Positions 55,345 to 61,102 of a stretch of 64,000 nucleotides of DNA are shown one piece after another. The position numbers and the translations under genes are program-made. The DNA comes from a bacterium BMS3Abin11 (lineage in GTDB: Bacteria > Pseudomonadota > Gammaproteobacteria > BMS3Bbin11). The stretch is from the NCBI GenBank assembly GCA_002897635.1, contig BDTD01000003.1, positions 1 through 64,000 on the forward strand. Direction: 5' to 3'. Under the pieces are notes generated by a model. The model was given only the letters and a program-made list of their open reading frames with translations. It made no database searches and had not been told where the DNA came from. Positions within the stretch are counted from its first letter, which is position 1. Every line of letters starts with the position of its first letter.

Positions 55345-55421
55345 CGGGGTATAGCGCAGTCTGGTAGCGCGCCTGCTTTGGGAGCAGGATGTCGGGAGTT
55401 CGAATCTCTCTACCCCGACCA
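55345..55421 (+). tRNA. tRNA-Pro (UGG)
   Basis: 77-nt cloverleaf with acceptor CGGGGTA/TACCCCG, D arm with GCGC/GCGC, anticodon loop TTTGGGA (anticodon TGG), T loop GTTCGAATC and encoded CCA. All stems pair. Confidence 0.96.
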
Positions 55422-55495
55422 GATTTATCAGAGCTGTCGGGCTAACAGGTGACTGAAAACGCGGCAGTCTAAATATGATAATGTAGTGCCGCAAG

Positions 55496-55892
55496 GCGCC
55501 CGTAGCTCAACCGGATAGAGCAACGGCCTTCAGCTGACACCTGATTGATCTTTGATTCATCGTTGATTGATTGGGTTTGTTGCTTAGGAGCCTTCGCCTG
55601 GAAACAGAACGGGCGAAGTGGAGGATACTGTATCGGTGAAACCTTACGTGCAAACGTTGGCAATACCGAGGAAACCGGTGGCCAGATGGTAATACCTGAC
55701 AGCCATACCTGATCGAATGAGCGCAAGCTGGTAGAACAGGGAAAGGAAACGCCGGGATCCGTAGAGACTATACGTGTCCCACCTGAGATGGTGAAGATAT
55801 AGTCCAGACCACAAACACCTGCGGGTGGCAGTGAAAACTGTAGTGGTAAGCTAAGCCGTAGGTTAGAGGTTCGAGTCCTCTCGGGCGCACCA
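55496..55892 (+). tRNA. tRNA-Arg (UCU), interrupted by a group I intron
   Basis: Exon 1 (55496-55530, 35 nt) and exon 2 (55851-55892, 42 nt) join to a 77-nt tRNA with acceptor GCGCCCG/CGGGCGC, D arm GCTC/GAGC, anticodon stem ACGGC/GCCGT, anticodon loop CTTCTAA (anticodon TCT), T loop GTTCGAGTC and encoded ACCA. This matches E. coli argU in layout. The intron splits the anticodon between positions 34 and 35. Without splicing no functional tRNA is formed. Confidence 0.93.
55531..55850 (+). ncRNA. Group I intron (subgroup IC3-like) in tRNA-Arg
   Basis: 320-nt intron with the exon 1 end U and intron end G required by group I chemistry. The guide is GAG (55588-55590), pairing with the exon end CUU as U.G, U-A, C-G. 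Just 5' of it, GCTTAG (55582-55587) is perfectly complementary to the exon 2 start CTAAGC (P10). P2 is CCTTCGCC/GGGCGAAG (55591 and 55611). The core has CGGTGAAACCTTACG, GGCAATACCGAG, the R segment GTAGAGACTATACG (55761 on) and the S segment GTGAAGATATAGTCC (55791 on), which form P7. All parts follow the Azoarcus tRNA-Ile intron in order. No protein is encoded, so splicing is probably autocatalytic (inference). Confidence 0.92.
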
Positions 55893-55917
55893 TTTTTTTG
55901 GTGCCAGAAAAGTTTAT

Positions 55918-55994
55918 GGTGAGCGTAGCTCAGTTGGTAGAGCCCCGGATTGTGATTCCGGCCGTCGTGGGTTCGAGTCCCATCGTTCACCCCA
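55918..55994 (+). tRNA. tRNA-His (GUG)
   Basis: 77 nt counting the extra 5' G (position -1) opposite C73. Acceptor GTGAGCG/CGTTCAC (one G-T pair), anticodon loop TTGTGAT (anticodon GTG), T loop GTTCGAGTC, encoded CCA. Confidence 0.96.
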
Positions 55995-56021: not shown

Positions 56022-56097
<76 letters not shown>

Positions 56098-58755: not shown

Positions 58756-60306
58756 GTGGCAAAAAAGAGGTTATCAATGCGTAAAATCAGAGAAATACTA
58801 CGGCTTCGCTATGAAGCAAAATTGGGCTATCGAGGCATAGCTCAAGCCCTCAATATTGGCTATGGCACGGTCGTCGATTATCTAAAACGAGCAACGACAG
58901 CAGGGCTTGGCTGGCCTGTTCCTGACGACTTGGACGAACGTGATTTAGCGCGTTTGTTGTTTCCGACTCAATCGCGAACAGGACAGCGTCGATTTGTCGA
59001 GCCGGACTTCGTGGCGGCGCAACAGGCACTTAAATCCAAAGGCGTCACCAAGCTCTTGCTGTGGCAGGAATACCGCCAGCAGACACCGGATGACGGCTAC
59101 AGTTACGCGCAATACTGCCATCGGTTTAAGTGCTGGCAAGGCCAGCAACAACGCAGCATGCGACAAGTTCACCGTGTTGGTGAAAAAATGTTTGTGGATT
59201 ACTGCGGCCCGACCATGGCGGTGGTTAATCCTGATACCGGCGAACTTCGCCAGGCACAGATTTTTGTTGCAGTACTCGGTGCCTCGAATTATACCTTTGC
59301 CTGTGCAAGCTGGAGTCAGAACAAAGCCGACTGGTTACAGGCACACGTCAAAGCCTTCGAGTTCTTTGGCGGTGTGCCTGAACTGGTGGTGCCTGATAAT
59401 CTAAAAAGTGCGGTCAGTAAAACCCACCGTTATGAACCGGATATCAATCCCAGCTATCAACAGCTGGCTGCCCACTATCAGGTGGCGATTGTTCCTGCCC
59501 GGCCTTACAAGCCTAAAGATAAAGCCAAGGCGGAAGTGGCCGTACAAATTGTTGAACGCTGGATCATGGCACGCTTAAGGCATCAATCCTTCTTTACTCT
59601 GGCCTCACTCAATCAAGCTATCAGTGTCTTGTTAGAAGACCTGAACCAGCGGCCTTTTAAGAAGTTGCCGGGGTCGCGTAAAAGTCAGTTCGAACAGCTG
59701 GATAAACCGGCGTTACGTCGCTTGCCTGCAAACCCTTACCAGTACGCTGAGATCAAACAGGCACGCGTGCATATTGACTACCACGTTGAGTATGACAAAC
59801 ATTATTACTCTGTTCCACACCACCTGGTCAAACAGGTGGTAGAGGTACAGGCCAGTGATAATACTGTGGCGATCTACCATCATGGCAAACGGATGGCTAG
59901 CCACCCTCGCAGTTATCGCCAGGGACACCATACAACCTGTACTGAGCACATGCCGCGATCACACCGTGCAATGCAGGAATGGTCACCAGAGCGCTTCCTG
60001 CGTTGGGCGGCAGACATCGGTGTGGAAACACGTGAAGTGGTTCAGCATCTGTTGCAGGAGAAGCGTCACACCGAACAAAGCTACCGTCGCATACTGGCGT
60101 TACTCAGTAACGCAAAAAAGTATGGGCGAGAACGGCTGAACAATGCCTGTGGTCGTGCCCTGTTGATCAACTCCCCGACCCGCACCAGTGTGGAGTCCAT
60201 CCTTAAACAGGGACTGGATCAGGTGGCAGTTGAATTACCACCGGTTCAAGAGGAACTGGCGCTGGATAACCACGAGAATGTTCGCGGTGAAGACTACTAC
60301 CATTAA
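58756..60306 (+). CDS. istA: IS21-family transposase IstA
   Basis: The 516-residue transposase starts at GTG 58756. It has an N-terminal HTH (YRGIAQALNIGYGTVVDYLK), a DDE/RVE integrase core with EKMFVDYCGPTMAV (first Asp), VPELVVPDNLKSAV (second Asp) and KDKAKAEVAVQIVERWIMAR (Glu), and the C-terminal Mu-like domain (YSVPHHLVKQVVEV). IstA and IstB act together. Full length, with no frame disruption, so the element could still be active. Confidence 0.93.
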   Translation: MAKKRLSMRKIREILRLRYEAKLGYRGIAQALNIGYGTVVDYLKRATTAGLGWPVPDDLDERDLARLLFPTQSRTGQRRFVEPDFVAAQQALKSKGVTKLLLWQEYRQQTPDDGYSYAQYCHRFKCWQGQQQRSMRQVHRVGEKMFVDYCGPTMAVVNPDTGELRQAQIFVAVLGASNYTFACASWSQNKADWLQAHVKAFEFFGGVPELVVPDNLKSAVSKTHRYEPDINPSYQQLAAHYQVAIVPARPYKPKDKAKAEVAVQIVERWIMARLRHQSFFTLASLNQAISVLLEDLNQRPFKKLPGSRKSQFEQLDKPALRRLPANPYQYAEIKQARVHIDYHVEYDKHYYSVPHHLVKQVVEVQASDNTVAIYHHGKRMASHPRSYRQGHHTTCTEHMPRSHRAMQEWSPERFLRWAADIGVETREVVQHLLQEKRHTEQSYRRILALLSNAKKYGRERLNNACGRALLINSPTRTSVESILKQGLDQVAVELPPVQEELALDNHENVRGEDYYH

Positions 60307-60343
60307 ATTAATGCAAATCAAACAAACACAAAAAGGAAAAACC

Positions 60344-61102
60344 ATGTTAAATAACCAAACCCTGCAATCCTTACGCAACCTGAAACTGACCGGCATGGCC
60401 GATGGCCTTGAGCAACAATTAGCGCAGCCTTCTACCCATGACGAACTGGGCTTTGAAGAGCGACTGGCCTTACTGGTTGATCGGGAAAGCACGCATCGTC
60501 ATAACAACAAAATCACTCGTCTAATGAAAGCCGCCAAACTCAAACTACAGGCGTATCCTGAAGACATTGATTACCACCATCCACGCGGCTTGCAGAAAAG
60601 CCAGTTTGCTGACTTACTCAGCAGCCACTGGATCCAACAGCATCACAATGTGCTGATCACAGGCCCCACAGGCTGTGGTAAAACTTACCTGGGTTGCGTG
60701 CTCGCCACGCAGGCTTGCCGACATGGACTATCGGTGCGTTACTTCCGCACTTCACGCTTGCTTGAAGCCCTTAGCATTGCCCATGGTGATGGCCGTTTTA
60801 CTCGGTTGATACGGCAACTGGCCAAGACCGATTTACTGGTACTCGATGACTGGGGCTTAGAGAAAATGACACTCAGTCATCGCAATGACATTCTGGAAAT
60901 AATGGAAGACAGGCATGGACTGAAATCCACTTTAATTACCAGCCAACTGCCGGTCAATCAATGGCACAAAACCATCGGTGATGCGACCCTTGCCGATGCC
61001 ATTCTTGATCGATTATTACACAACAGCCACAAGCTGAAACTGAAAGGAGAATCGATGAGAAAAATCATGAGTGAATTTACTGATTCCGATCACTTAGGGT
61101 AA
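60344..61102 (+). CDS. istB: IS21-family helper ATPase IstB
   Basis: IstB is a DnaA/DnaC-like AAA+ ATPase that selects targets for IstA. The 252-residue protein has Walker A ITGPTGCGKTYLGCVLATQA near residue 105 and Walker B DLLVLDDWGLEKM near 165. ATG at 60344 with AAGGA just upstream is chosen. An open frame reaching back to 60188 overlaps istA and is not conserved. Confidence 0.93.
   Translation: MLNNQTLQSLRNLKLTGMADGLEQQLAQPSTHDELGFEERLALLVDRESTHRHNNKITRLMKAAKLKLQAYPEDIDYHHPRGLQKSQFADLLSSHWIQQHHNVLITGPTGCGKTYLGCVLATQACRHGLSVRYFRTSRLLEALSIAHGDGRFTRLIRQLAKTDLLVLDDWGLEKMTLSHRNDILEIMEDRHGLKSTLITSQLPVNQWHKTIGDATLADAILDRLLHNSHKLKLKGESMRKIMSEFTDSDHLG

Follow-up and report, generated by a model that had tools for sequence, protein, structure and literature searches.

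We found that the tRNA-Arg(UCU) gene in a 64,000-nucleotide stretch of DNA from a marine gammaproteobacterium (bacterium BMS3Abin11, contig BDTD01000003.1; hereafter the window) is, to judge from its sequence, interrupted by a group I intron. The intron measures 320 nt (55531-55850 on the forward strand, CAGCUG...GGUAAG) and has no open reading frame (ORF) of its own. Very probably, it is functional, lies in the only tRNA-Arg(UCU) gene of this genome and descends from a mobile family, of which some members encode a homing endonuclease. The assignment draws on ARAGORN with introns allowed, on Rfam, on a covariance model of our own (R1) and on covariation; the ORF list offers only an antisense frame that spans the tRNAs.

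When introns were allowed, ARAGORN called 55496-55892 as tRNA-Arg(tct), containing an intron of 320 nt with the boundary GCCTT|CAGC...GTAAG|CTAAG. Without introns, no tRNA was called at 55496-55892, and the program returned the neighbors on the same strand, namely tRNA-Pro(UGG) upstream in the same cluster (55345-55421), and tRNA-His(GUG) (55919-55994) and tRNA-Lys(CUU) (56022-56097) downstream. The 5' exon (55496-55530) covers positions 1-34 and ends ...GGCCUU, with the anticodon nucleotide U34 last, and the 3' exon (55851-55892) begins CUAAGCCG, which supplies C35 and U36. Joining of the exons yields a complete tRNA of 77 nt, as expected for an intron in a bacterial tRNA anticodon loop; it folds as a normal tRNA-Arg(tct), and only 7 of its 77 positions differ from those of an uninterrupted gammaproteobacterial gene. 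Because the 3' exon CUAAGCC follows directly after ...GGUAAG, only CUU|CUAA or CUUC|UAA rebuilds the anticodon loop. We chose CUU|CUAA, since it leaves U before the intron and G at its end, and this places the insertion between anticodon positions 34 and 35, after U34. A split inside the anticodon with exactly these outer coordinates had been proposed in an earlier note on this DNA, and both the intron-aware ARAGORN call and the exact joining of the exons confirm it. On the opposite strand, a 173-aa ORF (55469-55990) was rejected as a gene, as it crosses tRNA genes; it holds a PERTRTSN-type peptide that is also present in antisense tRNA frames at other loci. Farther downstream, about 2.7 kb from the tRNA cluster, an IstA/IstB-type insertion sequence was identified by eye (58756-61102), with a 516-aa integrase-like ORF and a 304-aa ATP-binding ORF.

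The window genome is 99.92% complete in 38 contigs, and no second tRNA-Arg(UCU) gene was found among its approximately 42 tRNA genes. The tRNA-Arg genes with the anticodons CCU, ACG and CCG are intact, as is tRNA-Leu(UAA). A second, uninterrupted UCU gene, together with no spliced product from the interrupted one, is what the earlier note had named as speaking against its reading, and the absence of such a gene here favors that reading. AGA codons occur at about 6 per 1000 in the long ORFs of the window. A tRNA-Ile(GAU) gene was likewise not found in this genome, which is probably due to the lack of rRNA operons in the assembly.

We then examined the insert with covariance models. The Rfam model RF00028 (Intron_gpI) matched it at 55537-55825 with 29.7 bits (E 1e-4 in a 5.5-kb search), where the curated cut-off is 50 bits. 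As the score lay under this cut-off, we built the model R1 from 23 introns, all taken from outside the genus and family of the window. R1 scored the window intron at 155 bits with the next hit at 8 bits (E 3.5e-50; the model was calibrated quickly, which makes E-values rough and leaves the bit score unaffected), and the window intron was its sole hit in the whole genome. The check by group I covariance models suggested in the earlier note was therefore positive with an independent model and fell short with Rfam alone. A second weak Rfam match in the same genome (contig C9, E 3.7) was rejected.

Covariation was assessed in an alignment of 55 introns, at 37 proposed pairs in P2, P3, P4, P5, P6, P7 and P8. 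Standard pairs were present in 98.1% of the 2029 cells, and when partners were slid by 1-3 columns the paired cells fell to 31-43%. Our analysis revealed 295 double changes versus 83 in shuffles, and none of 500 shuffles reached the observed values. These changes affect 23 of the 37 core pairs and lie mostly in P2, P3 and P8, while P7 is near-invariant, its two double changes falling at the same pair. The insert thus contains the P3-P8 core with the P3/P7 pseudoknot by which group I introns are recognized, and the elements P2, P4-P6 and P7, previously picked out by inspection, are borne out by a P2-P8 core that covaries among the 55 introns.

All parts of the intron could be placed on the forward strand. 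The P1 target CUU (55528-55530) lies in the 5' exon, where U34 forms a U.G pair at the splice site, and is followed by a variable hairpin in the P1 loop (55531-55581), which by genus comparison and folding is longest in the window species and its nearest sisters. The P10 strand GCUUAG (55582-55587), complementary to CUAAGC of the 3' exon (55851-55856), directly precedes the internal guide GAG (55588-55590), identified from the sequence and by family comparison as the 3' strand of P1. The P2 hairpin (55592-55618, arms 55592-55600/55610-55618) has double changes at eight of nine pairs, P3 (5' strand 55623-55628, 3' strand 55774-55779) at five of six and the P8 hairpin (55780-55793, arms 55780-55783/55790-55793) at three of four. 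P4 (55633-55637/55665-55669) and P5 (55642-55643/55659-55660) occupy 55633-55669 and were placed with the covariation alignment, as was P6 with its extension (55670-55760, arms 55670-55678/55752-55760), whose loop is also the one that holds the endonuclease ORFs of relatives. P7, the guanosine-binding helix, pairs GACUA (55766-55770) with UAGUC (55800-55804); 99.6% of its cells are paired, a U-A to C-G double change occurs in two sequences, and an inverted-repeat search finds the same pair. Sequence inspection places the P9 domain at 55808-55847, closed by ACCAC (55808-55812) and GUGGU (55843-55847) and followed by AAG, whose G (55850) is the last nucleotide of the intron.

The window intron has CTT before the 5' splice site, a terminal G and a guide GAG that pairs with CUU, so that the U at the exon end, the G at the intron end and the 3-nt guide reported earlier could all be read in the sequence. 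Among 121 related tRNA-Arg(UCU) introns at 34/35, which were selected by CTT and terminal G and for which the guide is the only independent feature, 119 carry GAG in its P2 context, followed by CC or TGCC. The 6-nt P10 (GCTTAG with CTAAGC) claimed in the note is indeed present in the window, with 6 bp, but it is not a property of the family, where P10 mostly has 2-4 bp; a perfect 6-bp P10 was found only in the window intron and in one sister genome. In 118 of 119 introns, C35 is paired by the P10 strand. The dinucleotide directly before the guide is AG in 106 of 119 Arg(UCU) introns, where the 3' exon has CU, and UU in 10 of 11 tRNA-Leu(UAA) introns, where it has AA; in introns inserted at 36/37 (see below), whose 3' exon also has AA, a U adjoins the guide GGA in all 19 cases. 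As the P10 letters change with the host exon, we regard this as evidence for the use of P10. At some related loci ARAGORN gave the anticodons Ser(gct), SeC, Leu or Phe; these calls were rejected as mis-set splice boundaries, since the exon ends there are CTT and CTAAG.

Four of six congeners, and also another genus of the family, have the intron at the same place. No match was obtained in the remaining two congeners, which are metagenome-assembled genomes (MAGs) of 60% and 75% completeness in which the tRNA cluster itself was not found. The uninterrupted gene, in the same Pro-Arg-His-Lys cluster, is common in Gammaproteobacteria; orthologues with and without the insert, for which the earlier note recommended a search, therefore both exist. 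Of 369 genomes of the class that were scanned for the motif, 29 contained it, and in the subset with a readable host gene the intron lay in tRNA-Arg(UCU) at 34/35 in 13 genomes (9 outside the genus) and in tRNA-Leu(UAA), likewise at the 34/35 site, in 10. The motif matches L062 and L090 were dropped, as no tRNA surrounds them. When named GTDB genomes were scanned for the Arg(UCU) form, at least 119 stretches were obtained, and the 34/35 Arg(UCU) intron proved to be present in more than 100 species of Gammaproteobacteria (including Thiodiazotropha, Wenzhouxiangella, Woeseiaceae, symbionts of tubeworms and Solemya, and Shewanella), Bacillota (including Bacillus, Alkalicoccobacillus and Melghirimyces) and Desulfobacterota. 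Plasmid matches were all distant; they covered roughly one quarter of the query and fell at the 3' end of the intron and in the 3' exon.

Trees were computed from about 210 columns and contain several long branches, so their deep order is uncertain. The main gammaproteobacterial and Bacillota introns form one clade (100/100), and the genus and family of the window are supported at 100/99. The introns of Desulfobacterota, Shewanella sp. SR44-3 and Halothiobacillus (L118, L164, L203, L184, L130) fall outside the main clade, and a single origin of all 34/35 Arg introns was rejected (p 0.014). These data suggest that the 34/35 Arg(UCU) site was colonized repeatedly, by separate lineages. In the order that includes genome G039, R1 found introns in 31 of 43 genomes, and all 19 extracted tRNA-Arg(UCU) introns (L214-L235) lie at 36/37 (UCU|AA, after U36) and have the guide GGA, whereas the window intron combines CUU|CUAA with GAG. 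The 36/37 introns form one clade (100/100), joined at 100/99.9 to the main 34/35 clade, with positions inside and beside the latter not distinguished (AU p 0.71). The simplest reading would be a move by two nucleotides within one anticodon, with the guide and P10 rewritten.

In L075 and some other relatives, the P6 loop contains a 139-aa ORF of the family PDDEXK_5 (PF11645, E 5e-40). The same superfamily includes I-Ssp6803I, the PD-(D/E)XK endonuclease of the group I intron in Synechocystis tRNA-fMet (PMC1995217); the window intron differs from the latter in its host tRNA and in having no ORF, and hence no encoded endonuclease. As it is without an ORF and present through the genus, it is probably inherited vertically now.

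Several other loci deserve mention in their own right. In L069, a tRNA-Leu(UAA) intron, an HNH endonuclease ORF lies on the strand opposite the tRNA; L069, L072, L080 and L088 all lie in tRNA-Leu(UAA) and measure about 600-700 nt, and the last three resemble L069. L089 (G364) is an Arg(UCU) intron with an endonuclease ORF and a 3' exon without the CTAAGCCG... stretch; the tRNA copy is apparently either broken or wrongly assembled. A MAG labelled Rhodobacter (L181) has, on a single contig, a Pro-Arg-His cluster on each strand, and the Arg(UCU) introns of the two differ; this probably reflects either mis-binning of a gammaproteobacterial contig or a genuine duplication. The tRNA-Ile(CAU) genes L012 (G039) and L082 (G053) each carry a group I intron inserted between U33 and C34, a further site in the anticodon loop. 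In the rRNA operon L263 (G394:C7), the 23S gene holds at least two group I introns of Rfam grade, and the 16S gene is in pieces.

Small group I introns with a 3-bp P1, inserted in the anticodon, are present in the bacterial tRNA-Ile(CAU) of Azoarcus and tRNA-Arg(CCU) of Agrobacterium, in both after position 36. The window intron resembles these, as they are commonly described, in its small size, 3-bp P1 and anticodon site, and differs in its host tRNA and in its exact position within the anticodon. Among the introns found here, the nearest non-Arg ones, in the trees and with R1, were bacterial tRNA-Leu(UAA) introns; the designation of the window intron as Azoarcus-like, of subgroup IC3, is plausible. 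The tRNA-Leu(UAA) introns share with it the 34/35 site, the exon CUU, the guide GAG and a related core (R1 up to 64 bits), but form a separate clade and have UU (for AA) as P10 letters where the Arg(UCU) introns have AG (for CU). Both tRNA-Leu introns tested pass the Rfam cut-off (L010, L085), and none of the seven Arg(UCU) introns tested does so (L007, L070, L099, L103, L132, L147, L169).

A survey in 2007 referred to four interrupted bacterial tRNA genes (PMC1995217). An interrupted tRNA-Arg-TCT with a putative group I intron was later described in Candidatus Thiomargarita nelsonii Bud S10 (PMC4853749), and that paper cites a putative group I intron in tRNA-Arg-TCT of Beggiatoa sp. 'Orange Guaymas' (BOGUAY; MacGregor 2013a, via PMC4853749). 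The host gene is therefore not new, and the suggestion of the earlier note that it may be uncommon or new is not supported, all the more as the same-site intron occurs in more than 100 species of three phyla. The Beggiatoa and T. nelsonii introns share with the window the host tRNA, the group I type and the lack of an annotated intact copy; their insertion site is not stated in PMC4853749. At 324 nt, the T. nelsonii gene as reported equals L007 (G039) in length, which suggests that the reported introns are of the 36/37 type, the order of G039 being, as we infer, Beggiatoaceae. The 22-49-nt 'group I introns' claimed in 2017 for cyanobacterial tRNAs (PMC5733544) were rejected as a precedent, being too small for a group I core. 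In the open literature, with most subscription journals outside the search, the Thiomargarita paper was the only one found on tRNA-Arg(UCU) introns, and no description of the 34/35 Arg(UCU) clade was found. The size of the clade, the rate at which Rfam misses it, the 36/37 sister clade and the P10 letters that track the host exon seem to be undescribed.

In the proposed pathway, the transcript of the tRNA cluster would fold, the guide GAG would pair with the exon CUU, with U34.G at the splice site, and an exogenous guanosine held in P7 would attack after U34. The freed U34 would then attack after the terminal G 55850, while P10 would keep CUAAGC adjacent, and the joined exons would give the tRNA-Arg(UCU) required for reading AGA. 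We expect that the window intron almost certainly self-splices in this way. That splicing or folding in the cell needs a host protein is a minor but appreciable prospect: group I introns generally are frequently so dependent, and the minimum-energy fold of the lone precursor competes with the native group I fold and does not form P3 and P7 together (the program cannot draw pseudoknots). However, compact bacterial tRNA introns of such kind generally self-splice, and the locus bears no sign of a dedicated factor. It is very improbable that the intron is dead or decaying, no longer splices, and leaves AGA to be read in another way. The support for splicing is sequence-based, and the relative L089 does have a copy with a truncated 3' exon, yet all 37 core pairs are standard in the window copy, the core, guide and splice-site letters are kept within the genus while the loops vary, and AGA codons are in use although the genome has no other UCU tRNA.

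As to its origin, a recent jump of a tRNA-Leu(UAA) intron into tRNA-Arg(UCU) would agree with the site, CUU target and GAG guide that 11 Leu introns share, but appears improbable, because the Arg(UCU) introns constitute an old clade of their own, firmly joined with the 36/37 group, and tRNA-Leu(UAA) is intact in the window genome; an ancient jump between the two genes, in either direction, is possible. An assembly chimera or chance inverted repeats might be considered for a genome in 38 contigs whose named relatives are uncultured MAGs. Independent congeneric genomes, at 80-94% identity, have the insertion at the identical nucleotide, which already refutes this reading and makes its probability negligible. 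Our reading thus remains that the sole tRNA-Arg(UCU) gene holds a functional group I intron.

Collectively, the window locus is real and rather ordinary, as its intron family is present in more than 100 bacterial species and poorly annotated; the wider clade and the site shift are more interesting. On balance, though with clear reserve, we favor the view that the window intron is part of an extensive, largely unrecognized Arg(UCU) clade of Gammaproteobacteria and Bacillota, with separate lineages at the same site (Desulfobacterota, Shewanella, Halothiobacillus) and an allied clade shifted by two nucleotides, in which guide and P10 were rewritten together, and that standard annotation misses the extensive clade. 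Since ARAGORN without introns misses the window gene and the Rfam cut-off misses all tested Arg(UCU) introns, genomes can seem to lack an essential tRNA; if this view of the clade is true, many carrier genomes would seem to be without an AGA tRNA. The family would also provide a natural series on how group I introns choose and change their target site: within one host gene it occupies two sites that lie two nucleotides from each other, the guide and P10 change together, and an endonuclease is present in some copies and absent from others.
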